This document shows, piece after piece, positions 496 through 16,655 of a DNA stretch of 20,676 nucleotides. Numbering within the stretch: position 1 is the stretch's first letter; every line of letters starts with the position of its first letter. The translations under genes and the position numbers were made by a program. The stretch comes from a virus. Location of the stretch: IMG/VR virus record IMGVR_UViG_3300008448_000829, positions 1 to 20,676 of that record. One strand, written 5' to 3'. A model generated the notes under the pieces. The model was not told the DNA's origin, did no database searches, and saw only the letters and a program-made list of their open reading frames with translations.

Positions 496-800
496 TGATA
501 ACATTTATAATAGTATTATTAATAATATTACTTGGAATTACTACATATTTAGCGTATATTAATTATACAAAGTATAATCGTGCAGTTAAGTATGCAGAAG
601 CTTATGTACAATTTATATCGGCAGTATATATAAAAATTTTGGAAATTAATTACAAAATGAAAGAAATTGATCATAGAGGTTCGTTTCAAGCTGATGATGA
701 AGTTGGGTATACGTTTAACGCATTAAAAGAGTGTACTGACGATATACGTAATTTTATGTCGAAATATGTCAACACAGAAGAAAAGAAAACCGAGAACTAG
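495..800 (+). CDS. small membrane-anchored protein of unknown function
   Basis: This is a 101-residue protein. Residues 2-22 are strongly hydrophobic (ITFIIVLLIILLGITTYLAY) and form one clear transmembrane segment or uncleaved anchor. A charged, helical, probably cytoplasmic part of about 75 residues follows. There is no obvious signal-peptidase site, so it is likely an N-in, single-pass inner-membrane protein of the infected cell. The start ATG overlaps the stop of the HD gene, and the 3' end overlaps the sigma-factor gene by 35 bases. I do not recognise a named family. Small one-pass proteins of this layout are common between metabolic and late genes of T4-like phages. No function is assigned. 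Confidence 0.7.
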   Translation: MITFIIVLLIILLGITTYLAYINYTKYNRAVKYAEAYVQFISAVYIKILEINYKMKEIDHRGSFQADDEVGYTFNALKECTDDIRNFMSKYVNTEEKKTEN

Positions 801-1482
801 TAAGAAAAAAATGTATTTTGGTCCGGAAGTGGATCAAAGTATTATAAGGTATAATGAGAGTGAAGATAGTGATGAGCGTAGTCGAATATATGAACGAGAA
901 ATTAAGTATGCCTTAGATAAGTTAGTAGAAAATACGATCCATACCTACAAATTTTATTATACTGATAATCAGGAATTATCGACAATCCAACACGAGGCCG
1001 TTACCTTTCTAATAGAGAAGTTACCAAACTTTACTAAAGAGAAAGGTAAGGCCTTTAGTTATTTTTCTATTGTAGCTAAAAACTACTTTATTCTACAAAA
1101 TGAGAAAAATTTCAAAAAGCTAACACAGCATGATAAGATTGATGTGTATTCTGATTCCGCAAAGATGTCGATAGCGCCCTCTGATGACATTAATATGATT
1201 TCATTTATCACTGAGTTTGTCAATTACTGGGATAGTAATATTGATTTTTGTTATGAGAAGCGAGTAGATAGAAACATTGCTGCAGCAATTGTAGAATTGT
1301 TTAGAAGACGTGAAACTTTAGAGATATTTAATAAGAAGGCTCTTTATATCTACATAAGAGAAATGACTGATGCATCAACTCAACAAGTTACTCGAGTAGT
1401 TAAGTCTCTTAAAGAAAAGTATCGCAGAATGTATGAAGACTACGATAGATTAGGTTACATACCAAAGCAAATAGTATATTAA
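766..1482 (+). CDS. 55: late-transcription sigma factor, T4 gp55-like
   Basis: The 238-residue protein resembles the gp55 family of T4-like phages, divergent sigma-70 relatives that direct host RNA polymerase to late promoters. A basic N-terminus (KKRKPRTSKKK) is followed by YFGPEVDQSIIRYN and a helical part with KLVENTIHTYKFYY. The most diagnostic stretch is KGKAFSYFSIVAKNYFI, about residues 93-109, which matches sigma region 2. The C-terminus (VTRVVKSLKEKYRRMYED) looks like a helix-turn-helix or flap-binding element. The ATG at 766 lies inside the previous gene; the basic leader and family-like length support it, though an internal start at Met16 is possible. Sitting directly upstream of the structural genes fits control of their expression. 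In T4, gp55 acts with gp33 and the gp45 clamp; neither of those is seen here. Confidence 0.85.
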   Translation: MSTQKKRKPRTSKKKMYFGPEVDQSIIRYNESEDSDERSRIYEREIKYALDKLVENTIHTYKFYYTDNQELSTIQHEAVTFLIEKLPNFTKEKGKAFSYFSIVAKNYFILQNEKNFKKLTQHDKIDVYSDSAKMSIAPSDDINMISFITEFVNYWDSNIDFCYEKRVDRNIAAAIVELFRRRETLEIFNKKALYIYIREMTDASTQQVTRVVKSLKEKYRRMYEDYDRLGYIPKQIVY

Positions 1483-1753: not shown

Positions 1754-2098
1754 ATGGATAAGGATACAGTAATATTCGATGGCAAATCATTTGCTGATTT
1801 AATGAAAGATATCTACAATAATAGTAGAAAGAAGGATGAGCAAATAAAGGGACTTATTGACCAGCTCAAACCACTAATCAAAAACGTTAATGATGCAGCT
1901 GCAATGGTACCACTAATCAAAGAGTATTTAGAAGTCTCAGTAAAGAATGACGAACATCTTGTAAGATTAGCAGCTATTGTGCAGCGATTATTAGTTGCTG
2001 GTGATAAGGATGATAAAAATTCTGGTGGACTATCCGATGCTGAAAGAGCTCAGCTAATGCAAGAAGCTCAGGACCTATTAGATAAGCAAGCAGCATGA
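1754..2098 (+). CDS. small helical protein preceding the spike genes
   Basis: This 114-residue, almost entirely helical protein has FDGKSFADLMKDIYNNSRKK near its N-terminus, followed by LIDQLKPLIKNVNDAAAMVP and IKEYLEVSVKNDEHLVRLAA. The heptad-like spacing of hydrophobic residues suggests a helical bundle or short coiled coil. I have the impression of similar short proteins beside baseplate genes in marine T4-like phages, but I cannot name a function. A structural or assembly role is inferred from position alone. The gene ends in an ATGA overlap with the OB-fold hub gene, so the two are probably translationally coupled. It is one of the few genes with a real gap before it, so a promoter may start here. 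Confidence 0.65.
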   Translation: MDKDTVIFDGKSFADLMKDIYNNSRKKDEQIKGLIDQLKPLIKNVNDAAAMVPLIKEYLEVSVKNDEHLVRLAAIVQRLLVAGDKDDKNSGGLSDAERAQLMQEAQDLLDKQAA

Positions 2099-3126
2099 GT
2101 TTTTTTAAGAGTATTGGTGAGCATTTTACCGCTCCAAAAAATGTAAGATCACAATCTGATAATATATCAATTGTAGGTCCGTGTATTGTACTGGATGTAA
2201 TGTTAAGCGAAAAAGACGCTATACCAACAATATTCCCATACAATGGACCTGCAGATATTGGTAAAATAAGAATTAAGAAATTGGTAGTTTCCAATTCAAA
2301 GAAACCTGACGACGAAATAAAATTAACCGCATATCCCGCCGATCGAAAGATCATATCATACCCATTACCAGGTGAATTAGTTTTTGTATTTCTAGCAACC
2401 TCAAATGAAGTAAATGACGCTGGAAAATCTACTCGCCAGTTCTTTTATCAAACAAACATAACATTAAGTAATAGTATTACCTACAATTCACTGCCCAATG
2501 TTGGCGATAAAACAAAGACAAAAAACACAGCAGGATCAGATAATAGTACTGTAAGCAATTTTATAAATAACATACTGCAGAGATTTAATAAGAAATTAAA
2601 AAATAAAAGTAGTTATATTAAAGATAATGTAGATAGTAATAATGTCTTAGGTGTTATTGTAAAAGAGAGACCGCTACTACAACCTTACGAAGGAGATACA
2701 ATATATCAAGGTCGATTTGGACAATCAATAAGATTTGGAAGCACCACAAACAAGACTGATAATCCATGGTCAACAGAGGGATTGTCTGGAGCTCCAATTA
2801 TAGTACATAGAGTAACTGATAAATTAGATCAAAATAATCAACTATCATATACCACTGAGAATATAAATGATGATAATTCATCACTGTATATGTGCAGTAC
2901 ACAGAAAATTGATTTAAGACTTAGTTGCAGTACAAAAATGGATTCATGGAGAACTATATATAAGCTTAAAAAACAAACAGCTGACGCTGTTGCTGGAGCA
3001 AATATAGCTACAAACAAAGATGAAACTCAAATTTACCAAAAGGTGGTTGATGTGACTAAACCTATAACAGATGCATTTCCTAGTCAATCACAAACTTCTG
3101 AGACACAACCAACTCAACAGCAATAG
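2095..3126 (+). CDS. 5: baseplate hub protein, gp5-like OB-fold part
   Basis: This 343-residue protein resembles the N-terminal part of T4 gp5, the central hub and spike protein that sits on the tail tube. Residues about 20-135 are beta-rich, with GKIRIKKLVV, YPLPGELVFVF and FFYQTNITLSNS, the pattern of the gp5-type OB fold. A second block, about residues 190-280, holds ERPLLQPYEGDTIYQGRFGQ and IRFGSTT...NPWS, typical of the strand-rich connector in gp5-like proteins of environmental phages. The C-terminal tail is rich in S, T and Q (ETQPTQQQ). Unlike T4 gp5 (575 residues), it contains neither a lysozyme domain nor a beta-helix; these functions appear in the next two genes. It probably forms a trimer below the tail tube. 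The start overlaps the previous stop (ATGA). Confidence 0.75.
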   Translation: MSFFKSIGEHFTAPKNVRSQSDNISIVGPCIVLDVMLSEKDAIPTIFPYNGPADIGKIRIKKLVVSNSKKPDDEIKLTAYPADRKIISYPLPGELVFVFLATSNEVNDAGKSTRQFFYQTNITLSNSITYNSLPNVGDKTKTKNTAGSDNSTVSNFINNILQRFNKKLKNKSSYIKDNVDSNNVLGVIVKERPLLQPYEGDTIYQGRFGQSIRFGSTTNKTDNPWSTEGLSGAPIIVHRVTDKLDQNNQLSYTTENINDDNSSLYMCSTQKIDLRLSCSTKMDSWRTIYKLKKQTADAVAGANIATNKDETQIYQKVVDVTKPITDAFPSQSQTSETQPTQQQ

Positions 3127-3128
3127 AA

Positions 3129-4082
3129 ATGGCAGATTACACAACACCACCAACACTATCACCAAACGTACAGTCAAATATAAACTCACTACTATCTGTT
3201 ACTAAAGCAAATTATGACGCAATTGCTCGAAGCTTAATTAACAAAGCATTATCAGCTGCCCGTGTCACGTCTCCAAAAATAAGTGTAGATTCTGTGTATA
3301 AGTTGATAAAAGGAACAGTCAGGCCTATGACATCTCGTTGGGAGGGTGGATGGGGTAACCATCCAAATGATTCTGGTGGTGCAACAATGCGAGGAGTAAC
3401 TCTAGGTACATTTGTAGGTAGTTATGATGATATTTTTATAAACACGGGAATACAAGCTGTAAAGTCGGTAGCACAATCAGTAGATAATAATCTAAGAGGA
3501 TGGCGTAACGCAAATGGTAAAGGTGGTGCTGGTTTTGCAATAGCATCTCAAATGCTGTATCTCCTATTAAAAGATGAGGATGTAGCAGCTTTATGGACAA
3601 TATTATTTTACTGCTCATCACCAAATAGATATCCTATAGCAATATCAACAGAGGATCCGTATTTAGGTTTTATTTTATATGATATGTGTTGGGGATCCGG
3701 TGCTAGTGGTACGTGGGATTACAAGCGAATCGATCAATTATCGCGATCTTATGGATGGAATGGTGTTGCATCCTCTTTCCCCTCTTGGGCTGTATCTCTT
3801 GGTGATAGAACACCACAATTTGCTTTAGATTGTCTTAAATATAGTGTAGATCACATAATAAGAATATCAAAACCTGGCTCGAAAAATGCTGTTTTTCGTA
3901 AGGGCTGGCTTAATAGGTGTATTTTTGCACCCTTTTCACAGGTTGATGCACTGGTTATTATAAATGAGAATTTCAACTTAAATAAGAAGGGAATATATAA
4001 TTTTACGCAACCGGAAATCGATCACCTAGCCAGAAAGGCAGCAATTTATAAAACCCTCGAGTTAAACTTTCCTAATTTATAA
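3129..4082 (+). CDS. baseplate-associated muramidase, GH108-like
   Basis: This 317-residue protein contains WEGGWGNHPNDSGGATMRGV from residue 71. This matches the signature of glycoside hydrolase family 108 N-acetylmuramidases (EGG...D.GG.T..G), with Glu72 the probable catalytic residue. FILYDMCWGSGASG (about 181-194) and FRKGWLNR (about 256-263) match later conserved positions of the family. Residues 1-60 form an N-terminal helical extension with a T/P-rich start (MADYTTPPTLSP) and no signal peptide, which argues against a secreted endolysin. It lies two bases after the OB-fold hub gene and before a beta-helix gene. The most likely role is local cutting of peptidoglycan during injection, the job of the lysozyme domain inside T4 gp5. 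A lysis endolysin is less likely but not excluded. Confidence 0.8.
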   Translation: MADYTTPPTLSPNVQSNINSLLSVTKANYDAIARSLINKALSAARVTSPKISVDSVYKLIKGTVRPMTSRWEGGWGNHPNDSGGATMRGVTLGTFVGSYDDIFINTGIQAVKSVAQSVDNNLRGWRNANGKGGAGFAIASQMLYLLLKDEDVAALWTILFYCSSPNRYPIAISTEDPYLGFILYDMCWGSGASGTWDYKRIDQLSRSYGWNGVASSFPSWAVSLGDRTPQFALDCLKYSVDHIIRISKPGSKNAVFRKGWLNRCIFAPFSQVDALVIINENFNLNKKGIYNFTQPEIDHLARKAAIYKTLELNFPNL

Positions 4083-4084
4083 TA

Positions 4085-4978
4085 ATGGCTTTAAAGTTTA
4101 CTTACGAAGATATACTAAAAAAAGTCCAGAGTAATAAATCTCTGGATTACACTGGATCACCTACGGAATTTTCCGGAGAAGCAACACTGCAGATCCAGCA
4201 ACTAGAGCCTATTGATTTTCCAATGGATGATGTGACTTATGAGTCAACATTTACATCCACAAAGCAAGATATTACAAAGGTACTGTCAATAACACAGGAC
4301 TCGGTTGGATTCACAAACACATTCGCAAACGCACCACAAATCCTACTAAACTCGGATAGAGTTATTATAAACAGTAAACGGGACTACTTAATGTTATTTG
4401 GTGCTGCCGGAATAGCTATATCTTCCCAGAATCCGGTGAATATAGATTCGGATAGTAGTATAACAATAAATGCAACTGAGGGAATATATTTAGGAGTTCC
4501 AAATGCTGGGAAGGATTATGATTTTAATAATCAGAAAAAGCCTAAAACAAAAGGTGATCCTACAGAAAATCAAGCCTATGAACCGGTGGCATTGGGTATA
4601 AAACTAGCCAATATAATCGAAGATCTTTTAGTTGTTATTAAAAACGCAAGAATAGTAACACCGGTTGGATTAGCCTATTTTCGGGAAGATGCGCAATATG
4701 ATTTAGCGAATATACAAGCTAGATTACCTGAAATGCTTAGTAGTGTAGTTTTTGTGGATGGCGTAAGTCACGAAGCAACGGACCCAGCACCAAAGCCGCC
4801 AGCATCAATAACACAACCAGATACAACAATAACGGCACAAGTTAATGGTACGGTAGCACCAGCACAAGATCCAGCTACAGACGTGACCGGCACAACAACA
4901 ACAGCTCCACAAACATCAGCACAAGCAAGTGATAACTTAACACCATCAGGTCAATTAGGACAATTAGCAACACAATAA
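4085..4978 (+). CDS. tail spike protein with gp5C-like beta-helix
   Basis: This 297-residue protein has, in residues about 84-137, short alternating strands separated by turns: QILLNSDRVIINSKRD, LMLFGAAGIAISSQ, NPVNIDSDSSITINATEG, then IYLGVP. This resembles the triple-stranded beta-helix at the C-terminus of T4 gp5 (gp5C), the needle that pierces the outer membrane. A helical segment follows (KLANIIEDLLVVIKNA, about 173-188). The last 65 residues are low-complexity, rich in T, P, A and Q. Such proteins act as trimers. It begins two bases after the muramidase gene, so the order hub, lysozyme, needle is that of the domains of gp5. No metal-binding tip (PAAR) protein is seen nearby. The fold is inferred from the pattern, not from a search. 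Confidence 0.65.
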   Translation: MALKFTYEDILKKVQSNKSLDYTGSPTEFSGEATLQIQQLEPIDFPMDDVTYESTFTSTKQDITKVLSITQDSVGFTNTFANAPQILLNSDRVIINSKRDYLMLFGAAGIAISSQNPVNIDSDSSITINATEGIYLGVPNAGKDYDFNNQKKPKTKGDPTENQAYEPVALGIKLANIIEDLLVVIKNARIVTPVGLAYFREDAQYDLANIQARLPEMLSSVVFVDGVSHEATDPAPKPPASITQPDTTITAQVNGTVAPAQDPATDVTGTTTTAPQTSAQASDNLTPSGQLGQLATQ

Positions 4979-4979
4979 T

Positions 4980-5726
4980 ATGGCAGAAATTAGTGATTAC
5001 ACACAACCGATACAACCGGCAACTAGTATACCGAATCTAAATGCAGCAGATCTGCAGGTGCTATCAAACGACCTAAGTAATTCAATTACACAAGTCGGTA
5101 GCGCTTTAGTACACAAGAAGGTTTATGAAGCATACAAGCAAATGTCACTACAATTATTAACTGATAAAAATATATTATTGCAGATAGAGGAGAGTTTTAT
5201 TTCCAGGTACACACTAATTGACGAGCTTCGCGGATTAGTAAAGTATAAAAAAAAATATCCACAGTACGCAAAATTCCTAGATACATCCATTGCAATAGAT
5301 ACATTATACACAGATGAGAATTTCGAATCGTTTGTATCTTTTCTAGAGAACTTGAATAATAATGAGTTTGAACCAACATTAGGTGAACCTGTATCTATAC
5401 CACCACCAAATACAACAAGGCCGTCAAATCAACAAAATGTATCACAAGCGAATCAGGCAGTTAGATCGGTAACAGAAATATACCAAACTCCCAACAAATT
5501 AACACTAGATCCACGTAGATCGGGGCTATATGTTAAATTTGGTCCAACCCAAGCTATAAACGACACAACGCTCAGATGGATGTACCAGAATGCATACTCT
5601 TATGGTTTTGTATTTTATGGTCCCTACGATAAGAGCGTCTGGTTATATAGAAAAACACTTGTGAGCGATCAAAATTTATTCACAGAACAATCATTCCTTA
5701 ACAGTAGATTAAATTATCTAGCTTAA
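4980..5726 (+). CDS. baseplate protein with degenerate VanY/M15-like domain
   Basis: This 248-residue protein has a helical N-terminal half (about 20-130), a P/N/Q-rich linker (about 131-160) and a C-terminal domain (about 168-225). The last part carries SGLYVKF, then LRWMYQNAYSYGF and VWLYR, in the order and spacing of the D,D-carboxypeptidase VanY/M15B pattern HxxGLAxD ... WLxxNAxxYGF ... EPWHW. The expected zinc ligands appear lost: His to Arg179, Asp to Lys186, and the final His to Leu222; the catalytic Glu is also missing. If the fold is right, the protein binds rather than cuts, perhaps peptidoglycan stem peptides. Its place next to the muramidase and spike genes suits a wall-contact or baseplate role. 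It overlaps the next gene by TAATG. The family link rests on a short motif. Confidence 0.55.
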   Translation: MAEISDYTQPIQPATSIPNLNAADLQVLSNDLSNSITQVGSALVHKKVYEAYKQMSLQLLTDKNILLQIEESFISRYTLIDELRGLVKYKKKYPQYAKFLDTSIAIDTLYTDENFESFVSFLENLNNNEFEPTLGEPVSIPPPNTTRPSNQQNVSQANQAVRSVTEIYQTPNKLTLDPRRSGLYVKFGPTQAINDTTLRWMYQNAYSYGFVFYGPYDKSVWLYRKTLVSDQNLFTEQSFLNSRLNYLA

Positions 5727-8500
5727 TGCCGATTAACTTTGAAACAACTTTTGTACAGCCAGTACTAGCGGAACTAGATGCAGGAAAGATAACTAATGCA
5801 TCGGATTGGGCAAGAGTCATAACAAAGTATTACGTAGCAACAATTAAAACCGGTGCACCACAAGGCGTACCATTTACACTACCAGCACCAGCATTTTTAG
5901 GAGCACCTTATCCTATGGGAAATATTTTCTATAATACAATAGATGCAAAAAGTAGGTTAATGGAAAATATAATCAAAGCTTATTTTTTAACCGAAGAAAT
6001 AAAAATACAAAAGGGTGGTATAAAAGGATTGGCTCAAACTGTCAAACAATTGGCATTAAAAGCGAGGGTATTAAAATCTCAGATAAAATCACTCACACAA
6101 CAAATAAAGCAGGTAATAAAGGAATTAGAAGAATTACCAACGACATTAACTGAATTATATCAGAATATAACTGAAGAGATTACTAGTAAAAAAGAAGAGT
6201 TGCGACTACTAGTTGGTGCCATTGATAATTTTCAACTAGAATCAAATAGCATAGATGTTAGATCTTATTTTAGTAATGAATTATCACTAATTGAAGATAT
6301 AACAAACTTTGAATTTTCCTTCAATCTATCAACACTACAAAAGTTTACATCATTAACAAGTGGATTAGATACGAGACTAACACAAATTGAAGCGGTAACA
6401 TCAAGCAATCAAGCATTTAGAGCGTATATTCTTCAAACAATTACGAGGATAGCCAGAGATTTATTCGAACTTATAAACACAGCTGTATCACCGACCCAAT
6501 ACATAACTTTTTACCAACAGTTATCGGATACGAATTCCAGAGCTAGAATAATATATGAAAAACTTAAGCGGATAGAATATTTTGAAAAGAAATTAGAGCC
6601 AAAACTGCAAGATTTGCAAAAAAAAATAAAGGTTAAAACAGATCAGTTGGCTAATAGGGTTGAGACTCGAATAGATGAGTTAAAGAAAGATATTAAAAAA
6701 CGTGGTGAGGAGTTAGCGCAGAGAAAGGGTGATGGCAAAGCAACCATCTATAAAAATGCAAAAAAAACACTATCTGACTTCAAACAAAAATACAAAGAAC
6801 AACTAAAGAAAAATCGAGAAAATATAAAAAGATATACTAAGATAATAAAATTAGTTAATAAAGTAACTAATAAATCAATATCAATAGTTTTAGGAGTTAA
6901 TGCTGAGATACAAAAAATAAAACAACTACAAAGCAATCTACAAATAGACACTGAACAGAATAAATTACTGATACAAGAGTTTGCTAATAAAAACGGATTG
7001 AGTGAAATTGCCAATACCTTAACATTACTAGTTGTCGATTCTAAAATTGATGCGCAAATTATTATAGAGCAATTAAAAACAAGAACTGCAATTGGCGCAC
7101 AATACTACAATCAACTAATAACATTATATAATAATGATATACCTGACTTACTAGCAGAAATAAACAAAACCCCAAGACAGCAGAAAGCGATTGCAGAGGA
7201 AAGAGAAACATCATTCTTAACATTCTATAAGTTTTATGAATCGAGAGTGCAACCGGAATTAAATAAAATTAAAGATCTACTCAAACGCAAAGTAGATGAA
7301 ACAAAGAAGACTATTGATGAGCAGATAGATACAACTAAAAATGATATATCTGAGTTTGCAATAAATCTTATACCAGTTAAAAGTGATGTCGAGGATAAAA
7401 AAACAAAAAAATTAACAGTAGAGGAGAAGAGGAGATTGTTGGAAGATAAAAAAAAGAAACTTACTAAAATAAAAAAGCAAATAGCTTGTAGCAAACAATT
7501 ACTACAAGGTTCTACAGTACTATTAAAAAATATAGTTAGTGGAGAATATAGTTATTCGAGAAATGAAGTTGCTATAAACAAAATTGCTGACGGTTATTTT
7601 AATTTTAAATCGATAGATAAGAGTGGTAGCGAAATAGAAGCTCTACTGGAAAAAAAACAAACCTTTAAAAGAAGATCGCAGGATCTACTACTGGTGGATA
7701 ATTTGATACTAGCAATCAAAACATTAGTAAATGAAATTAAATCTGATCCGGAATTTTCTCAAAAATGGAAAGATCGAGTACTTGATAAAATAGAAGATAA
7801 TACAAAAATAACACTCTTTAAAAGTGTGGGTAATATATTGAGTGGATCTACATCCAATCCCAAGGACATAGCAAGTATAGGCAACGAACTCACATACGCA
7901 GCATTACAGGATTATAATACGATAAGAAATATTGCAACTATCGAACAACGATACACCCAAAAAACGTTGCAACTAATTAGTCGATTCGCACAATCCAAAA
8001 CGCAAGCAGGACTCTATTTTAAAGACCTCGAAAACAAGCTGCAGGGTGAAAAATCAATTGTGGTTTTTTTACTCAACCAAATAACAATAAAGCAACAAGG
8101 TGTTATAAACTATCTTAATGCATTTGTAGAAAATGCAAAGTTAGAAATCGCAAATAAGATTAACGAAAAAAAAACTAAGATAGAAGAACAAAATAAAGCG
8201 GCTTTAGATGCATTAAAAGAAAAAAAACTAAATGTAAAGGCCGGTATAATGAGTCTCACATTTAGCGTAGCAACAAGAGCTTTGTGGTCCGGAGGTACAT
8301 GGGTAGGACCGACTGGTACAATATTTACAGTGGCTAGTATTGGGCCATTTAAACCAATAAAAGCTCAAATTGAAGGTGGTGCAAGTGCGATGATTAGAGA
8401 AATAGCTCGAGGGTTCGAAACACAGCTAAAAATTTTAACTGGAACGTATGCGAACCCAACTGCAGGCATCACACCAATACCGTTCGTAGGATATCGATAA
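5726..8500 (+). CDS. long coiled-coil virion protein, possible tape measure
   Basis: This 924-residue protein is Lys/Glu/Gln-rich and mostly helical. Residues 1-75 form a compact head (FETTFVQPVLAELDAG, then PAPAFLGAPYPMGN). From about 85 to 835 long heptad-like stretches predict extended coiled coils, for example LKARVLKSQIKSLTQQIKQV, KRRLLEDKKKKLTKIKKQ and ANKINEKKTKIEEQNK. The last 85 residues change to a Gly-rich, hydrophobic region (LWSGGTWVGPTGTIF) ending in IPFVGYR. It could be the tape measure that sets tail length: about 750 helical residues at 1.5 angstrom each would span roughly 110 nm. It could instead be an extended baseplate protein. It lies between the spike genes and gp25, not right after tube and sheath genes, and lacks clear transmembrane helices, so the tape-measure role is uncertain. 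The start is fixed by TAATG. Confidence 0.6.
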   Translation: MPINFETTFVQPVLAELDAGKITNASDWARVITKYYVATIKTGAPQGVPFTLPAPAFLGAPYPMGNIFYNTIDAKSRLMENIIKAYFLTEEIKIQKGGIKGLAQTVKQLALKARVLKSQIKSLTQQIKQVIKELEELPTTLTELYQNITEEITSKKEELRLLVGAIDNFQLESNSIDVRSYFSNELSLIEDITNFEFSFNLSTLQKFTSLTSGLDTRLTQIEAVTSSNQAFRAYILQTITRIARDLFELINTAVSPTQYITFYQQLSDTNSRARIIYEKLKRIEYFEKKLEPKLQDLQKKIKVKTDQLANRVETRIDELKKDIKKRGEELAQRKGDGKATIYKNAKKTLSDFKQKYKEQLKKNRENIKRYTKIIKLVNKVTNKSISIVLGVNAEIQKIKQLQSNLQIDTEQNKLLIQEFANKNGLSEIANTLTLLVVDSKIDAQIIIEQLKTRTAIGAQYYNQLITLYNNDIPDLLAEINKTPRQQKAIAEERETSFLTFYKFYESRVQPELNKIKDLLKRKVDETKKTIDEQIDTTKNDISEFAINLIPVKSDVEDKKTKKLTVEEKRRLLEDKKKKLTKIKKQIACSKQLLQGSTVLLKNIVSGEYSYSRNEVAINKIADGYFNFKSIDKSGSEIEALLEKKQTFKRRSQDLLLVDNLILAIKTLVNEIKSDPEFSQKWKDRVLDKIEDNTKITLFKSVGNILSGSTSNPKDIASIGNELTYAALQDYNTIRNIATIEQRYTQKTLQLISRFAQSKTQAGLYFKDLENKLQGEKSIVVFLLNQITIKQQGVINYLNAFVENAKLEIANKINEKKTKIEEQNKAALDALKEKKLNVKAGIMSLTFSVATRALWSGGTWVGPTGTIFTVASIGPFKPIKAQIEGGASAMIREIARGFETQLKILTGTYANPTAGITPIPFVGYR

Positions 8501-8511: not shown

Positions 8512-8895
8512 ATGAAAGCACAAGAATTTGTAAAACTACTAAGAAAAGTAATTCGCGAAGAAGTAACAGCTGTTGTTGGTGAAGAGCTTCGCCGAGTACT
8601 TAATGAGGAAATTAGTTCACCAAAGCAACCCATTCGCGAACAAGCTAAACCAAAACAAAAAACAATGCAGCGAATGCAATATCAGAGAGAGTATCCACTA
8701 GTATCTATGGAAGATATATTTGCTGATACAAGAGCTAACATGGCTGGATTTGGTGAGGATCAAGTAGGACCTATAGTTGAAGAAACCTATAATCCAGAAT
8801 TACCAGTGTCTAGCGCGCAGACTATGACCTTGATAAAGGATTATAGTGCATTACTTAAGAGAGCTGATGAAATTGCTAATAATAGTAGAGGATAA
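8512..8895 (+). CDS. small helical protein upstream of gp25
   Basis: This is a 127-residue protein. The N-terminal 35 residues form a charged amphipathic helix (KLLRKVIREEVTAVVGEELR), followed by a polar linker rich in K, Q and P, then a short conserved-looking segment (YPLVSMEDIFADTR) and a final helix (LIKDYSALLKRADEIAN). The shape suggests an assembly or adaptor protein with a disordered middle. I do not recognise a named family. The gene is preceded by an 11-base gap with a promoter-like motif and ends by TAATG overlap with the gp25-like gene, implying coupled expression with the wedge genes. Confidence 0.65.
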   Translation: MKAQEFVKLLRKVIREEVTAVVGEELRRVLNEEISSPKQPIREQAKPKQKTMQRMQYQREYPLVSMEDIFADTRANMAGFGEDQVGPIVEETYNPELPVSSAQTMTLIKDYSALLKRADEIANNSRG

Positions 8896-9314
8896 TGGCA
8901 CAGCAAATCAGAGTCGATCCTATAGATCTAGAGCTAGACACAGCAATTGGTATTGATTTACCAGCAATTGAGTCTAATGGTTCATCTTTCAAACAAACAT
9001 ACCTAACAATAGATGCAGCATTTGCTAACGCAAAGAATTTATTACTCACAAATAAAGGTGAGCGTATAATGCACCCAGAGCTTGGTTGTGATTTAAGAAA
9101 GTCTATTTTTGAATTTAACGATGGTGTACTAACAACAAATATTGATTCTAAGATTAGATCACAATTTGAGTTTTGGCTTCCATACATATTTATAAATGAG
9201 TTAACAATTACACCATCACAAGATGAAAATTCGGTTTTTGTTAAACTTACAATAAGTTTGCAAGGTGATGAATTCAACACTAGAAGCATATCACTGCAGA
9301 TAAACACTAATTAA
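8895..9314 (+). CDS. 25: baseplate wedge protein, gp25-like
   Basis: This 139-residue protein has the size and layout of the gp25 family (gpW/lysozyme-like), a core wedge component that links the baseplate to the first sheath ring. The central motif NAKNLLLTNKGERIMHPELG (about 46-64) with LRKSIFE matches the family pattern, including the Gly-Glu-Arg turn. A beta-rich C-terminus follows (VFVKLTISLQ). In T4, gp25 sits with gp6 and gp53 and helps start sheath contraction; despite the family name it is not an enzyme. It is followed one base later by the gp6-like gene, the usual pairing in contractile tails. The start is one of the few with a G-rich upstream stretch (AGAGGATA), which is also coding sequence. 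Confidence 0.9.
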   Translation: MAQQIRVDPIDLELDTAIGIDLPAIESNGSSFKQTYLTIDAAFANAKNLLLTNKGERIMHPELGCDLRKSIFEFNDGVLTTNIDSKIRSQFEFWLPYIFINELTITPSQDENSVFVKLTISLQGDEFNTRSISLQINTN

Positions 9315-9315
9315 A

Positions 9316-11193
9316 ATGCCAACTAAAGACATAAAATACCTAGGTCGCGATTTTGATAGCTTTAAGCAGGGTCTGATTGAGTTTGCAAAAGTTTATTACC
9401 CAACAACTTATAACGACTTTAACGAAACATCACCAGGAATGATGTTTATTGAGATGGCAGCTTATGTTGGTGATGTACTAAATTACTATATTGATAGTCA
9501 ATTCAAAGAGAACTTAGTACTACATGCTCAGGAACGAAGAAATCTCCTCGATATAGCAAGTGCATTCGGTTATAAGCCAAAACTATCCATACCATCTATA
9601 GTCGACATTGACATATATCAACTATTACCAGCAGTGGGTATTGGCCAAAATGTTACAGCAGATACGACGTATGGTTTGATTATTGATCCTGGAATGCGTA
9701 TTAGATCTAGCGCTGGACAAATAGAATTTATAATTCCAGAAGGTGTTGATTTTTCGATTAATTCATACACTTCACCAAGAGAGATTTCTGTATATAGTGT
9801 AGATCAAACTACTGGTGCACCAAATTACTATCTTGCTAAAAAAACAGTAAAAGCAATCAGTGCTATAGAGCAAACCGCGACATACACAATCGGCACGGCT
9901 GAGAAATTTAAAAAAATACTAGTTACAGATAACAACCTGATAGCAATACAGAGTGTAGTCGATTCGGATGGTAACATATGGTATGAGGTACCATACTTAG
10001 CGCAAGATACTATATTTGAAAAAGTTACAAATACACAATTTAATGATCCTGACACAGCTGTATATTCAAGCGAGACACCATACTTACTAAAACTAAAAAA
10101 AGTATATCGTAGATTTATATCACGCATAAAAGAAAATGGAATAGAAATACAATTTGGTTCAGGAGTCACTACTACACCAGATGAAGAACTACTAGCTACA
10201 CCAGAGAATCTAGGACTAACACTACCAACTGGAAAGGTAGACATAGATGCACCTATAGATCCGGCAAGCCCATTATTTACAAGATCTTACGGTATTGCAC
10301 CAAGCAACACAACACTTACAGTTACATACTTGACTGGAGGTGGTGTATCTTCAAATGTACCATCAAATACAATTACAGAAATTACAAATGTAAATATACA
10401 AACAGCAAATCTACCAGCAGCTACATCAATATTAAATCAGCAAATAATAAATTCATTAGCTGTAAATAATCCTACTGCAGCAAGTGGTGGTAAAAGTGGT
10501 GAATCTATAGAAGAAATAAGACAAAATACACTAGCGCAATTTACGGCACAAAACCGTGCAGTGACTCGCGAAGATTATATTGTTCGAGCATATGCAATGC
10601 CTGCGGAATATGGCAGCGTTGCTAAGGTTTTCATATCACCAGATGAACAAAATAATATTGGAACATCAGACATAGGTGATACAGTAGCTAATCCGCTAGC
10701 GTTAAATATGTATGTTTTAGGTTATGATAACAACAAAAATATAGCAGTAGTTAATCGAGCTGTAAAAGAAAATTTAAAAGTTTATCTAGACTCATATCGA
10801 ATGTTAACAGATAGTATTAATATTCGCGATGCTTTCGTTGTTAATATTGGTGTGGACTTTGATATAATAACACTACCGTCATTTAATGCAAATGAAGTAT
10901 TGTTGAGGTGTGTTGATAGTATGAAAAGCTACTTTAACATCGATAAATGGCAGATAAATCAACCAATAAACATTAACGATGTGTATACCGAATTACTAAA
11001 AATAGAAGGTGTGCAAACAGTGACGAGGGTTGGTATATCGAATAAAAATGACTCGTACAATGGATATAGCAACATATCCTATGATATAGCGGGAGCTATT
11101 CGCAACGGTATAGTTTATCCTAGTTTAGATCCTTGTATTTTCGAAGTAAAATATCCAAACGTAGACATAAAAGGCAGAATAGCAACATTCTAA
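9316..11193 (+). CDS. 6: baseplate wedge protein gp6-like (baseplate J family)
   Basis: This 625-residue protein matches gp6/gpJ-type wedge proteins, which dimerise and join wedges into a ring around the hub. The N-terminus has YLGRDFDSFKQGLIEFAK, then SPGMMFIEMAAYVGDVLNYY and ERRNLLDIASAFGYKP, the conserved start of gp6-like proteins. The central baseplate-J region, near residues 389-430, has GGKSGESIEEIRQNTLAQF and NRAVTREDYIVRA. The C-terminal part (about 480-625) includes INQPININDVYTELLKIEGV, common to this family. The length is close to T4 gp6 (660 residues). With gp25 it would form the conserved core that turns host contact into sheath contraction. Confidence 0.92.
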   Translation: MPTKDIKYLGRDFDSFKQGLIEFAKVYYPTTYNDFNETSPGMMFIEMAAYVGDVLNYYIDSQFKENLVLHAQERRNLLDIASAFGYKPKLSIPSIVDIDIYQLLPAVGIGQNVTADTTYGLIIDPGMRIRSSAGQIEFIIPEGVDFSINSYTSPREISVYSVDQTTGAPNYYLAKKTVKAISAIEQTATYTIGTAEKFKKILVTDNNLIAIQSVVDSDGNIWYEVPYLAQDTIFEKVTNTQFNDPDTAVYSSETPYLLKLKKVYRRFISRIKENGIEIQFGSGVTTTPDEELLATPENLGLTLPTGKVDIDAPIDPASPLFTRSYGIAPSNTTLTVTYLTGGGVSSNVPSNTITEITNVNIQTANLPAATSILNQQIINSLAVNNPTAASGGKSGESIEEIRQNTLAQFTAQNRAVTREDYIVRAYAMPAEYGSVAKVFISPDEQNNIGTSDIGDTVANPLALNMYVLGYDNNKNIAVVNRAVKENLKVYLDSYRMLTDSINIRDAFVVNIGVDFDIITLPSFNANEVLLRCVDSMKSYFNIDKWQINQPININDVYTELLKIEGVQTVTRVGISNKNDSYNGYSNISYDIAGAIRNGIVYPSLDPCIFEVKYPNVDIKGRIATF

Positions 11194-11194
11194 T

Positions 11195-12295
11195 ATGATA
11201 ATTAGCTTTTATCCACAAAAAGACGCGACTATATACGAAAAGTATATAAATAAAAATACAGGACTTGATGCTATTCTTGATATTAGCAAGGTATCTGAGG
11301 GCACTAGTAAATATAATTCTAGAGCATTAATTAGGTTTGATCTAGCAACGCTTGCACAATACAGCAGTTCTGGATTAATTACATCGGCATCAGATGCAAA
11401 ATACTACTTGAAATTGTATGTCACAGAACCAGAGGAGATTCCCGTAGAATACACACTACAATGCTATGCGATTAGTCAAAGTTGGAATATGGGTAGTGGA
11501 AGATACGCAAACACGCCAGAAACTACAGATGGAGTTACTTGGAAATATAGAAGCGCGGTTTCAACATCAGGATTAAAGTGGACTACAGCGTCATATGCAG
11601 CTACAACAACCGGATCATATGCAACTATACCAGGTGGAGGTACATGGTTTACAGGCTCAGGAGCTACACAGTCGTTTAGTTATTCAACTGCAGATGTAGA
11701 GTTTGATGTGACTACAATAGTGCGAGATTGGTTAGCCTTAACAGTAGAAAATCAAGGGTTTATAATAAAAAAGACAGATGTAGCTGAACAAGATAGTAAT
11801 GTGTTTAAGAGCCTAAAATTCTTTAGTAGGGATAGCCATACAATATGGGTACCAAGATTGGAATTGAGATTTAATGATTATGAACACACAGCCAGCTACA
11901 GTAGTATTAATATAAACAACGAAAATTATATAAACATATCAAATATAAAAGACGCATACAACGAAAAGAGTAGAGTGACTTTTAGAATCGGAGCCAGACC
12001 CAGATTTCCTCAGATGACGTTTCAAACATCATCACTCTTTTTAAATAATTACCTAATACCATCGCAATCACAATACAGTATTGTAAAAGCAGACACAAAC
12101 GACATTATCGTACCGTTTGATACTGGCTTTACGAAAATATCAGCCGACAGCCAAGGTAGCTACTTTAAATACTATTTAGACGGATTACAACCAGAGCAAT
12201 ACTATAAAATTCTCATTAAAGTTGTAGATACTGCAGCTGGGTATGAAGAAATTTATGACAAAGATTGGATTTTTAAGGTTAATAAACAACAATGA
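11195..12295 (+). CDS. DNRLRE-domain tail/baseplate protein
   Basis: This 366-residue, beta-rich protein has in residues 1-225 the features of DNRLRE (disaggregatase-related) domains: an N-terminal FYPQKDATIYEKY, then NKNTGLDAILDI, the strand SRALIRFDL, and later VEFDVTTIVRDWL and NQGFIIKK. These modules occur in secreted and phage proteins and are thought to mediate adhesion or carbohydrate binding. Residues about 230-366 form a second beta domain of unknown type, ending in WIFKVNKQQ. It lies directly after gp6 and overlaps the next gene by ATGA, so it is probably a peripheral baseplate or fibre-attachment protein. No catalytic motif is visible. Confidence 0.7.
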   Translation: MIISFYPQKDATIYEKYINKNTGLDAILDISKVSEGTSKYNSRALIRFDLATLAQYSSSGLITSASDAKYYLKLYVTEPEEIPVEYTLQCYAISQSWNMGSGRYANTPETTDGVTWKYRSAVSTSGLKWTTASYAATTTGSYATIPGGGTWFTGSGATQSFSYSTADVEFDVTTIVRDWLALTVENQGFIIKKTDVAEQDSNVFKSLKFFSRDSHTIWVPRLELRFNDYEHTASYSSININNENYINISNIKDAYNEKSRVTFRIGARPRFPQMTFQTSSLFLNNYLIPSQSQYSIVKADTNDIIVPFDTGFTKISADSQGSYFKYYLDGLQPEQYYKILIKVVDTAAGYEEIYDKDWIFKVNKQQ

Positions 12296-14031
12296 GAGGT
12301 ATAGATGGAAATGTTATTATTGATTTAAGAGATGGAATAGATACACAGATCACATCACCTCTTACAAGCATAGCATTATCTACAACAAACGAAAACGATA
12401 CAAGATACACCCTCTTTCCAATAAACATAAACCAAACACCAATAATCGTATCGGGTATACTTAATGCCAGTGAGCCACCAATAAAATCGATTCAAGCTGC
12501 TAGTAGTGATCTAAGAATATTATATATTAATGCGGATAATATTGTTCGTATAGCTGCAAACGAGCGGATAGTATTGAAAATACAAGCAATCCAACCTAAT
12601 ATACCTAATGTTGAAAACGGTATACCACAAATAATACCACCAACACAAGGATTAATCTATACCTGGAAAAGGGATGGTAATGTATTAATCAACGATGGCG
12701 ATTATACAATTGTAAATAATACACTCACCATAAAAAATACTGATCCTACCCTATCTGGATTATATAGCTGTGATGTATCAAATGACATTGGCACAACTAG
12801 TTCGGAGGAAGTTGAGTTTGAAATTGTTGACATCGAAGCCGATCCATTCTTCTATCAAAATCACATAGAAAATCCTATAGCAGCTGATGATACTGATAGT
12901 TGGGTAAGCTCAATTGGCAATATAGAAGCTAAAAAATTAAGTAATACACCAACATATACATATAAAAAGGTCAACAACGTTAATAATTTTGGCTACACGG
13001 TTGATATGTTTTATCCTAGACCATATCAATTAAACTACTACGATATTAATAATTATGATATTAATAATCTAGTAACGAGAGGTGGTTATTTTACTCGTCC
13101 AAAACTCAATTATTATATTAATGGTGAAACAACTACAGTATCAGCTTACCAGGATATAGATTTAACCGACATACAAGATTACATTCAAAATACGATTTAC
13201 GGTGTACGAGGTGTGCGTGCGGTATTTAGCTGTTATATAGGAAATGCAGTATCTCGATTTAGGCACACTACAGGATTTTACAACCCCTATGCTAGATTAA
13301 ATGCTAAAAATTATCAACAAAACTCATCGCGATTGAGTCTCGATAATATGTCTAGAGCTGGATTGCCAGAGATAAATGAAAGTGCCGAAGTTGTAATTGA
13401 GGAATATAATGGGTATAATCAATTACCTATTAATTTATATAATCAAGATACAACAATAACAACAAGAGTGTCGAGAATAAGTTTATTAGATCCGTGGACT
13501 AAAGCGAAAAACGCAAATACAATAAATCAAGATGCATTTATTAGAGTATCGAATATACTTAATACCCTTTACGGTAGTGAAGATTTGAACAGATATACAC
13601 TAGGACAGTATGTAGAACACAATAAAGTTGTAATCAATAAATTAAATTTTGAAACAAATAAAATTCGAATTAGATTAAATTTTATATGTCGTGATCCTAG
13701 GTTAGTGGATGTGTTTGAAGAGTTTACATCAAGCACCGATGAATTATATGACGTTGTTTCATGGGAACCACCAACTACCGCATTCACTCCAGCACCCAAT
13801 AACATCCTTCAATTCGATGGAAATGCGTCAATGTTATTCCGGCTACAGCAAGATAAACCAAATGTACCTATTTTACGTCTTATGCCTAAAAACGGATTAT
13901 CCCGCACATTAATCACAGGATTGAATTTAAACTTAATTCCAATAACCGATCAAGATCGCGTTAATTATTATACAAATAACATTGGTAGCCCAATTAATAA
14001 CCAGCCAACGATAATTCCTAATCAGTTATAA
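12292..14031 (+). CDS. Ig-domain virion protein, first of a tandem pair
   Basis: This 579-residue protein contains an Ig-like domain at about 80-180, with the hallmark core IYTWKRDGN (Trp125) and LSGLYSCDVSNDIG. The usual first cysteine is absent, so no canonical disulfide can form. The region after it begins DPFFYQNHIENP and includes IDLTDIQDYIQNTIYGVRGV, AVFSCYIGNAVSRFR and, near the end, PILRLMPKNGLSRTLITG. The next gene shares the Ig domain and the region after it, so the two are paralogues. Ig-like domains on phage virions often give weak binding to cell-surface carbohydrates. A peripheral baseplate or tail protein is inferred. I do not recognise the C-terminal family. Confidence 0.7.
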   Translation: MRGIDGNVIIDLRDGIDTQITSPLTSIALSTTNENDTRYTLFPININQTPIIVSGILNASEPPIKSIQAASSDLRILYINADNIVRIAANERIVLKIQAIQPNIPNVENGIPQIIPPTQGLIYTWKRDGNVLINDGDYTIVNNTLTIKNTDPTLSGLYSCDVSNDIGTTSSEEVEFEIVDIEADPFFYQNHIENPIAADDTDSWVSSIGNIEAKKLSNTPTYTYKKVNNVNNFGYTVDMFYPRPYQLNYYDINNYDINNLVTRGGYFTRPKLNYYINGETTTVSAYQDIDLTDIQDYIQNTIYGVRGVRAVFSCYIGNAVSRFRHTTGFYNPYARLNAKNYQQNSSRLSLDNMSRAGLPEINESAEVVIEEYNGYNQLPINLYNQDTTITTRVSRISLLDPWTKAKNANTINQDAFIRVSNILNTLYGSEDLNRYTLGQYVEHNKVVINKLNFETNKIRIRLNFICRDPRLVDVFEEFTSSTDELYDVVSWEPPTTAFTPAPNNILQFDGNASMLFRLQQDKPNVPILRLMPKNGLSRTLITGLNLNLIPITDQDRVNYYTNNIGSPINNQPTIIPNQL

Positions 14032-14033
14032 TA

Positions 14034-16655
14034 ATGGAAAAAATTATTCGAACTCAACCAATTGGTCGGGATAAAGCCAATAGAAGTACAGATTACCAGC
14101 TGCTACCGGTTAATCCAACACCTCCAGCTATATTACAGCAACCTTTTGCGGGATTTACACAAACGAGTTGGAAAAATAATCAAGAGGAATATAAGGTTGC
14201 AACTCCAGTAGATGGTGTTATAAAAATGGTTGAGGGAACGGAGTTTAGTATAGTAGTCATAGCAGCAGATCCATCAAATTTACAGAATATTAATGATGAT
14301 AGTAATCTAAGATATGTTTGGAAAAGAGATGGTACACCTATATACGAAGTTAATTCACTAAATAATGATAAAGGAATTCGAGGTATAAATATATCCAAAC
14401 AAGCAAGTAAAAAAGAATTATCAGGCACATATACAGTAGAAATAACAAACAATTTTGGAACAACAACGTCAACCGATCTAGAAATTCAAATATTTAAGTA
14501 TGTTGAACATCCAATGTTATACACAAACTTGGTTGTTAATGGTAGTGGAGATGAGGGTTTAGATGGGTGGCAAACAGATACATCTATAAAGACAAGTGAC
14601 TACTTTACCACAGGCCTATTAGAAACAAGAAATTTAGGTAGCTTTAATGTGGATTTGACTAAACCACTAGAAGTAACATACCCGCAACAAGTATTTCGTT
14701 TTTCAAAAACGACCAATTGGTCTAGCCTACCTACAGTATTTAATAGAATAGTTAATAATGATAACATAAATGCTCCCGACTTTAAGTGGGCGAGAAGTAT
14801 TCCAGCGGCATTAGTATTAAACGAACGTAAAACAGAAACATCACTAGCAACATTTTTTCCAGATCCTAGCTGGATTGATACATACAATAGAAATAATACA
14901 GGTAATTTAACAATTCCACTACAGAGAGAGATTGAAAATTCAAATGCCTATTTCACAAGAGATAATATAAGATTTAGTAAATTCGGAGATAAGTCAGTAT
15001 CACGAGCAGTACAAACAATTGATTTAACAGATGCTGCAGATCTCATCGATGGAAATGTTTATGGAATAGATAGTGTTGTTGGTCAGTTTTTTGCTTACGT
15101 AGGTATTGGGTTATCTCGATATAAATTTAATATACCTTATGAATCAGGCAATACTCAAACTAATTGGTTTATTATAGATACGACGGTGTATGAAGATATA
15201 GGGGAAGATTTCGCAACAAGAGGACCAACCTCTATATTTTATCCGGAAGGAGGTGTAGACGAATCGAAGCCAATCGAACTAATACCAATAGCAGATGATA
15301 TAACTACTATAAATATCAGATATCTAGATGGTAACGATGATTTAATTTCTGAAAAAAATATAGATGGTCCGACAGCCGAAGATATATTCGCAGTAAAAGA
15401 AAAATTTTATATACCGAAGTTTTTGGAAACCCCAATGACAAAGGGTATTCCATATAGAGCAGCTGAAAGTTATGATTTATATGATATAGATGCAATTTAC
15501 AACGCAATGTCCGCGTTTCAGACAGCTGATTCGTGGACTTTGGCAAGTGGAGATGGAAGAGTGGATGCTAGGACAGATAAGTGGTATGATGAAATAAATA
15601 ATGATATATGGATTGCCGTCCTGGGAATATTATCGCAAAACCCAGATAATGCCGATAGTGATTATGACACAACAAAAGTTAGAGATACTGACTTCTATGA
15701 TTATTACTACAGAAGAGTCGCAGAGGAGGTAGCATTTGATAATAAAGATCAAGATGAAGATTCTAGAGCATCTAGCGATGCCAATTTAGATGCTGGAAAC
15801 ATATACTATTTTCAGTATATGATATTTGCCAACTTCAGAACCGCAGCAGAGTTTAATACTTGGCGATTTGATATGTTAGCAAATAACGATGGATATCAAC
15901 GTGATGATGATGGTGTATCTCAAAGAGATGCTTACAAAATACAACAGCGGTTTATCATATTTGAAAAATTTCTCCAACTCGCAGAACAAAATAAAACTCG
16001 AATCACAGATAATCTAAGATATAGAAACCCAATAAATATATACAATCAAACTTACACGAAAGTAGATAGAATAGGATATTTAATGGATCGCAATCTTAAG
16101 TGGATAAATGACAATCTTGAAAGTTCACAATATCCACTGAAATCCGATCCGGGAGCAGCTGCATTCTTTGCCATCAATGATAACAATACGATACCTAAAG
16201 GTACCCGAAAGGTGCAGCTATCCTTTGAGTTTAAACATACTTCAGAAATACAAGATGATCAATCACCAGAGATCAATAATTGGGATAAGCAGGAGTTATA
16301 TATTGATTTATTCGGCCAAGTCGGACAGGATAAAAATATAGGTTTGAAGTATGGAGAACCACGATGTGGTATCACTAGTATGAAATACGTATTATTTGCA
16401 AATAAATTAACAGTTAATACTAATTACAATAGCTATAATATACCACCAAAAAATGTTTGGTATACAGAAAAGGAAAAACTAAAGCAAAATATACACGACT
16501 CTACGCTAGATCTAGTTGTTAATATAACAACAGTGGATGGATTGCAGCCACTACCAGTAAGTCAGCCAGTTACACAGAATGAATTGAATACACCAACAGA
16601 ACCTGGAAGACCATCGACAACCGGCTTACAACAACAACAATCAGAAAGAAATTGA
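14034..16655 (+). CDS. Ig-domain virion protein, second of a tandem pair
   Basis: This 873-residue protein has an Ig-like domain at about 60-153, with LRYVWKRDG (Trp96) and ELSGTYTVEITNNFGTT, lacking both canonical cysteines. The following region matches its upstream neighbour: HPMLYTNLVVN against DPFFYQNHIEN, and IDLTDAADLIDGNVYGID plus FFAYVGIGLSRYK (about 325-365) against the same motifs there. It is about 300 residues longer. An acidic, helical stretch at roughly 465-660 (for example DTDFYDYYYRRVAEEVAFDN) has no counterpart in the first protein and looks like an insertion. The C-terminus is a Q/T/P-rich tail ending LQQQQSERN. It is probably a peripheral baseplate or tail component that forms a complex with, or replaces, the first Ig protein at a different site. 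Confidence 0.7.
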   Translation: MEKIIRTQPIGRDKANRSTDYQLLPVNPTPPAILQQPFAGFTQTSWKNNQEEYKVATPVDGVIKMVEGTEFSIVVIAADPSNLQNINDDSNLRYVWKRDGTPIYEVNSLNNDKGIRGINISKQASKKELSGTYTVEITNNFGTTTSTDLEIQIFKYVEHPMLYTNLVVNGSGDEGLDGWQTDTSIKTSDYFTTGLLETRNLGSFNVDLTKPLEVTYPQQVFRFSKTTNWSSLPTVFNRIVNNDNINAPDFKWARSIPAALVLNERKTETSLATFFPDPSWIDTYNRNNTGNLTIPLQREIENSNAYFTRDNIRFSKFGDKSVSRAVQTIDLTDAADLIDGNVYGIDSVVGQFFAYVGIGLSRYKFNIPYESGNTQTNWFIIDTTVYEDIGEDFATRGPTSIFYPEGGVDESKPIELIPIADDITTINIRYLDGNDDLISEKNIDGPTAEDIFAVKEKFYIPKFLETPMTKGIPYRAAESYDLYDIDAIYNAMSAFQTADSWTLASGDGRVDARTDKWYDEINNDIWIAVLGILSQNPDNADSDYDTTKVRDTDFYDYYYRRVAEEVAFDNKDQDEDSRASSDANLDAGNIYYFQYMIFANFRTAAEFNTWRFDMLANNDGYQRDDDGVSQRDAYKIQQRFIIFEKFLQLAEQNKTRITDNLRYRNPINIYNQTYTKVDRIGYLMDRNLKWINDNLESSQYPLKSDPGAAAFFAINDNNTIPKGTRKVQLSFEFKHTSEIQDDQSPEINNWDKQELYIDLFGQVGQDKNIGLKYGEPRCGITSMKYVLFANKLTVNTNYNSYNIPPKNVWYTEKEKLKQNIHDSTLDLVVNITTVDGLQPLPVSQPVTQNELNTPTEPGRPSTTGLQQQQSERN

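Follow-up and report, generated by a model that had tools for sequence, protein, structure and literature searches.

A probable split central spike in an uncultured phage, with a GH108-like muramidase gene between the two halves of the spike gene

The window analyzed here, a linear virus contig of 20,676 bases from IMG/VR (IMGVR_UViG_3300008448_000829), carries three consecutive genes whose products probably form the central spike complex of a phage with a contractile tail, with the two halves of a split spike, an OB-fold-like adapter and a needle, flanking a muramidase that would be docked between them. A preliminary description of the window had placed an OB-fold protein, a GH108-like muramidase and a beta-helix protein in this order and had read them as T4 gp5 deconstructed into separate genes. 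All three open reading frames (ORFs) lie exactly where that description put them (Table 1), each with its own ATG, and with the reported two bases between stop codon and next ATG at both junctions. The Q/T/P-rich C-terminal tails described for ORF 1 and ORF 3 are present, as is the T/P-rich leader of the muramidase, whose N terminus reads MADYTTPPTLSP. Since 13 further distinct loci have the three genes in this order, it is neither an assembly error nor a chance arrangement. The genes occupy a slot beside the gp25 and gp6 wedge genes, in the window and in relatives with the same order; spike, gp25 and gp6 also follow one another in P2 and Mu, and the gp5-gp25 order is found in Vi01.

The evidence for a split comes from relatives in which this slot holds one gene. 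Searches with tblastn returned Microcystis phage Mel-JY01, Flavobacterium phage immuto and the 484-kb uncultured phage LR756508, each with a single ORF of 378-503 aa in the spike slot whose N-terminal part matches ORF 1; the C-terminal part matches ORF 3 in single-sequence searches for Mel-JY01 and immuto, and with a profile for LR756508. Scans of viral contigs, sorted with hidden Markov models (HMMs), gave about 90 distinct loci (L numbers below). About 75 of these have one OB+needle ORF and no GH108 gene, and 14, including the window, have OB, muramidase and needle as three genes. Four further arrangements are informative: a muramidase-needle fusion of 549 aa with a separate OB gene (L108), an OB part fused to a lysozyme of PF00959, which we take to be the family of T4 gp5's own lysozyme (L095; residues 347-487, E 1e-8), with a separate needle gene bearing a peptidase-like domain, separate OB and needle genes without a muramidase (L096), and OB and needle in one ORF (L110). 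L095 and L108 are represented by a single contig each. No relative of the needle was found in GTDB species genomes.

To avoid circularity, the profile used to compare the two forms was built from one-ORF proteins alone. Residues 22-291 of ORF 1 correspond to profile positions 32-284 (E 6e-54) and residues 76-258 of ORF 3 to positions 288-457 (E 5e-29), and in every split locus the OB gene ends and the needle gene starts near position 285. Since the two tile the one-ORF profile without overlap, ORF 1 and ORF 3 are halves of one ancestral gene. The same tiling led us to drop a split by junction duplication, raised by a first HMM that had hit ORF 1 at its end and ORF 3 at its start but had been seeded with both.

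In a maximum-likelihood tree from two neighboring genes, whose root is an assumption, 15 of 15 split rows fall in one clade (support 100/100) nested among one-ORF forms, and the GH108 gene is confined to this clade. The one-ORF locus L110 lies inside it, and a tree without L110 in that place is rejected (approximately unbiased test, p 0.0036). In L110 the needle signature DYLMLFG and an OB segment with the TWKT motif are of the split type, and the needle head (the N-terminal segment treated below) is missing, which fits a re-fusion. The simplest reading of this tree would be one split and one re-fusion, although recombination of spike genes may be an alternative. The recurrent split of the spike gene with an enzyme gene between its halves is real, and is most simply traced to a single origin.

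Each neighboring pair of the three parts is covalently joined somewhere: OB with needle in most relatives, muramidase with needle in L108 and OB with lysozyme in L095. These natural fusions suggest that the three proteins build one needle, and docking of three chains is a well-motivated hypothesis. Two terminal segments, the tail of the OB protein and the head of the needle, co-occur with a free muramidase. The tail HMM hits every complete OB gene that has a free-standing muramidase in its locus (13 of 13 distinct genes, E <= 7e-7), and the head HMM matches in 14 of 14 distinct loci with such a muramidase (E <= 2e-14). Neither has a match in L096, L108, L110 or any one-ORF spike; L095 is likewise without a head match and scores with the tail HMM at E 0.06 only, ahead of the core. 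Because L095 and L096 still share 58-66% identity with the window in the needle core, divergence alone does not explain their absent head, and since L096 is split yet has neither segment, the segments track the free muramidase and not the OB/needle split. We infer that the OB tail and needle head may hold the muramidase, and we treat them as candidate docking tags.

By domain match ORF 2 is a GH108 muramidase, predicted to cleave peptidoglycan. It matches Glyco_hydro_108 (PF05838) with E 2e-7 and 31.8 bits, above the curated cut-off of 21.2, and has the motif RWEGGW; further matches are to PHROG 315 (endolysin, E 4e-6) and PDB entry 2nr7 (E 8e-4). The earlier assignment of the middle ORF to an enzyme family other than that of T4 gp5 therefore holds. 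The gene is located between the OB and needle genes in 14 of 14 distinct three-gene loci. The predicted catalytic position is Glu in most homologues and Asp in L003/L005, L004 and L108, and in L099 the motif is altered to WESSW and the gene is kept. Between L005 and L004 the ratio of nonsynonymous to synonymous substitution rates (dN/dS) of the muramidase gene is 0.145, indicating purifying selection despite the change from Glu to Asp, which fits the expectation for a structural partner. L004 and L005 also have tandem needle-gene duplicates, each copy with a different C-terminal enzyme-like domain (L004:10001-12946, L005:5925-8852), one with LEGGY...SGETMFGIDR and the other with an AWCNFF...HINIAY pattern; neither domain can be named from a match in Pfam or PHROGs. 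The muramidase beside the duplicated needles is the one without the predicted catalytic Glu.

Sequence searches of Pfam, PHROGs and PDB gave no significant match for ORF 1 or ORF 3. The AlphaFold2 (AF2) model of ORF 1 has a mean predicted local distance difference test score (pLDDT) of 72, with beta core blocks at 85-94, and its structural neighbors in PDB by Foldseek are non-significant (E 0.19 or worse), mostly uS12-like ribosomal and DUF35-like proteins, which are OB folds. The OB label given to this ORF earlier thus agrees with the modeled beta core and these neighbors and is weakly supported, with no significant match to confirm it directly. ORF 3 is predicted to comprise a short beta-helix-like stretch, then two helices and then the Q/T/P tail. 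Its AF2 monomer (mean pLDDT 67, about 80-87 over residues 91-240) is an extended chain without intrachain strands followed by two helices, with no PDB match by Foldseek; such a model is as expected for one strand in an intertwined trimer. A gp5-like needle chain folds only as it trimerizes (PMC4576200), and the needle fold can hardly be judged from a monomer model. The beta-helix claimed for ORF 3 would cover at most about 60-75 residues; the moderately confident extended chain is consistent with it, and no PDB match confirms it directly. The needle of the window was checked for an HxH iron-tip motif and has none, and THPTGTGPSGPP-like forms occur in several one-ORF relatives.

Table 1. Features of the spike locus and its neighbors in the window (positions in the 20,676-base window)
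Feature	Position	Strand	Length, basis or remark
Gene 1, N-terminal spike half, OB-fold-like adapter (predicted)	2095..3126	+	343 aa; one-ORF profile match, AF2 core
OB tail, ORF 1 residues 286-342, core IYQKVVD	2950..3120	+	candidate docking tag
Gene 2, GH108-like muramidase, ~62-residue N-terminal leader	3129..4082	+	317 aa; PF05838
GH108 motif region RWEGGWGNHPNDSGGATMRGVT	3324..3416	+	predicted catalytic Glu72 at 3342-3344
Gene 3, C-terminal spike half, needle (predicted)	4085..4978	+	297 aa; one-ORF profile match, AF2
Needle head, ORF 3 residues 1-47, FTYEDILKKV ... EPIDFPM	4085..4225	+	candidate docking tag
Degenerate M15/VanY-like protein	4980..5726	+	probably baseplate part; not needed for split-spike claim
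gp25-like baseplate wedge gene	8895-9314	+	PHROG 261, E 2e-16; marks spike slot
gp6-like baseplate wedge gene	9316-11193	+	PHROGs 10646 and 6, E 2e-17; marks spike slot

In the arrangement we propose, ORF 1 would form a trimeric OB-type adapter under the hub and ORF 3 a trimeric needle, and ORF 2 would be carried on the needle as a muramidase that opens the peptidoglycan once the outer membrane has been pierced. The ancestral single-chain spike would have separated once, when a muramidase gene came between its halves, and where T4 gp5 keeps its lysozyme in place by covalent linkers, this spike would rely on non-covalent docking, with the OB tail and needle head as the most likely contacts. The muramidase may be present in the virion; its constant position, the needle fusion in L108 and purifying selection are indirect signs of this. 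A more far-reaching version, to which we give somewhat less than an even chance, is that a gp5-like needle is made from three separately encoded chains, with the enzyme as an exchangeable cartridge clipped in by two short tags that are lost where the enzyme is fused or lost, and with gene fission doing the job of proteolytic maturation in T4.

Several observations weigh against a split spike with a docked enzyme. No gp27-like hub gene was identified, neither ORF 1 nor ORF 3 has a significant sequence or fold match to gp5, gpV or VgrG, and the OB gene of L099 (start incomplete) ends in AWQKI and gives no tail HMM score. The correlation of the terminal segments with the free muramidase draws on four exceptions from three lineages and on HMMs trained on the positives. 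It is conceivable that the spike is indeed split but that ORF 2 is a common late endolysin, neither docked nor in the virion, the gene of which came to lie between the halves by chance; the best PHROG match of ORF 2 is annotated as endolysin and the protein is distantly similar to lysin-like proteins of Bacteroidota phages. We consider this unlikely, given that the position between the halves is constant in all 14 distinct three-gene loci, that L108 has the enzyme fused to the needle, that the needle head and OB tail occur only with a free-chain muramidase, and that purifying selection persists after loss of the predicted catalytic Glu. That last loss, seen in L003/L005, L004 and L108 and accompanied by the WESSW form in L099, with the gene kept throughout, would also suit a muramidase-fold protein that is mainly structural, a collar or clamp between OB part and needle in which catalysis is secondary and often lost. 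The EGG-type motif is intact in the window and most relatives, however, and we give this explanation a small chance.

About as improbable is a reading of ORF 1 and ORF 3 as some other baseplate or tail-tip pair, for which the gp25/gp6 slot would be a coincidence. The lack of a significant match to any solved spike and the short needle stretch followed by helices, unlike T4 gp5C, speak for such a pair, but the slot order spike-gp25-gp6 with gp5-gp25 in Vi01, the weak OB-like neighbors of the ORF 1 model and the hydrolases that one-ORF relatives bear or adjoin, as spikes do, speak against it. Joining of the ORFs by frameshifting or readthrough into a fused gp5-like protein might be read from their different frames and from their abutting or overlapping in many relatives; with an own ATG and a conserved N terminus for each ORF, and junction sequences that differ from locus to locus, we regard it as extremely improbable, though no search aimed at slippery sites was made. 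We retain the split spike with a docked muramidase as the probable explanation.

One-ORF relatives carry hydrolases or have them adjacent. Mel-JY01 has a putative chitinase gene directly after its spike, and a Foldseek search of BFVD returned uncultured-phage relatives only, including A0A6J5MDN0 (E 2e-11), whose GH19 annotation suggests another enzyme-bearing member. The gene 3' of the one-ORF spike (L006-L088) is highly variable, being absent in some loci, Phage_lysozyme2 in L018 and others of up to 1,600 aa elsewhere; this slot looks exchangeable.

Other genes of the neighborhood were also examined. Two small genes directly upstream (window 766-1482 and 1754-2098) have no convincing database match and are neighbors of the spike in almost every relative, Mel-JY01 and immuto among them. 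The degenerate M15/VanY-like protein downstream of the needle reads DPRRSGLYVKFG...YGFVFYGPYDKSVWLY, with metal-ligand positions replaced in comparison with the M15/VanY peptidase. In L100:7869-9212 and other homologues a second, intact VanY domain follows the degenerate one (PF02557, E 3.5e-16), and the family profile of the window's protein weakly re-matches this intact domain. The next protein (window 5726-8500), coiled-coil-like and 924 aa long, has a homologue in L097:7819-10686 that is split into two ORFs of 273 and 678 aa. Further along, the 14034-16655 protein matches homologues of the adjacent 12292-14031 protein (phmmer E 9e-16); the pair probably arose by tandem duplication of a gene for a structural protein of the tail or baseplate. 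Proteins of about 2,100 aa in L200:157-6480, L202:106-6480 and L203:148-6483, on contigs of up to 362 kb, have a faint baseplate-hub match (PHROG 184, E 0.01) and a C-terminal PF00959-like lysozyme domain akin to the one in L095; in L199 such a lysozyme is preceded by an M15-like domain. Such 2,100-residue hub-like proteins with an L095-type lysozyme are absent from the window's relatives, save for a weak partial match in immuto.

Few components of contractile injection machines are as conserved as spike, lysozyme and needle, and the way in which an enzyme gets onto the spike is an open question of design, there as in type VI secretion. The clade described here amounts to a natural experiment: the same modules are distributed over one chain, two or three, and each junction is covalent somewhere. 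If the tail and head do dock the enzyme, they would be short, testable loading tags. Independently of this, proteins so far called hypothetical in Mel-JY01, immuto and many uncultured phages gain a spike assignment.

With respect to T4 gp5, the preliminary description was right that consecutive genes here encode the pieces of a dismantled spike in the T4 domain order, whereas sequence homology to gp5 itself is not detectable. PF06714 (Gp5_OB) was sought at E<=1 in the window and in 9 related records and gave no match; an hhalign comparison with the gp5 OB family is in register at Prob 17% and P 0.0015. PF00959 is absent from the window and 9 related records, and among the loci it is present only in L095. 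A direct link to solved spikes was sought with phmmer and hmmsearch against PDB and with Foldseek, and with hhalign to the gp5 proteins of T4, cyanophage, Vi01, phiM9 and F207, and nothing significant was obtained. In place of a gp5-type single polypeptide with maturation cleavage there are three ORFs with their own starts in 14 distinct loci. As these three defining features of gp5 were tested and are lacking, we do not claim membership in the T4 gp5 family. No full gp5 was found elsewhere in relatives of 51, 132, 160 and 190 kb, which have one spike copy each (the immuto match being in two pieces) and gave no hit to PF06714 or PF00959; the window is a 20.7-kb fragment. Because the widespread form is OB-needle without lysozyme, GH108 is found only in the split clade and no sequence homology to gp5 was detectable, the split ancestor was most simply a lysozyme-less OB+needle spike and not T4 gp5, and the T4-like layout looks like an independent assembly rather than a deconstruction of gp5.

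Among known proteins, WWT39504 of Mel-JY01 and YP_010114567 of immuto, both annotated as hypothetical, are homologous over their full length to ORF 1 and ORF 3 and have the same neighbors, but they are unsplit and come without a GH108 gene. ORF 2 has the EGG motif and C-terminal GWLNR region in common with GH108 muramidases (PF05838) and differs from them in its extra conserved leader of ~62 residues and in its place inside a baseplate cluster. The likeness to T4 gp5 lies in the order of OB part, lysozyme and needle and in a lysozyme that, in the window, would be tied to the spike. T4 differs in having one precursor cleaved at Ser351/Ala352 instead of three genes and a PF00959 enzyme instead of GH108, and the needle of the window is much shorter, without VxGxxxxx repeats. 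The mature T4 spike, (gp27-gp5*-gp5C)3, consists of nine chains of three types after cleavage behind Ser351 (PMC3004832). L095, in which an OB-lysozyme gene precedes a needle gene, has the gp5*/gp5C boundary as a gene boundary, with PF00959 in both L095 and T4. We found no described three-gene spike in the open-access literature, which is not proof of absence. By analogy, the three genes may work like a gp5/gpV-class spike with an on-board muramidase. P2 gpV, Mu gp45, Milano gp27 and A-1(L) gp25 have an OB fold and then a short needle, as predicted for ORF 1 and ORF 3, and lie beside gp25/gp6, but they are made as one chain. A-1(L) gp25 is described as having an N-terminal helix, an OB fold, a beta-strand domain and a C-terminal loop (PMC10966104), and in that phage the hydrolases are on the hub and not between spike halves. 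Together with A-1(L) gp25 (PMC10966104), the lysozyme-less spike Milano gp27 (PMC10811340) has the closest layout to the ancestor, and the ancestral one-ORF form is likely to have been a lysozyme-less spike of this kind.

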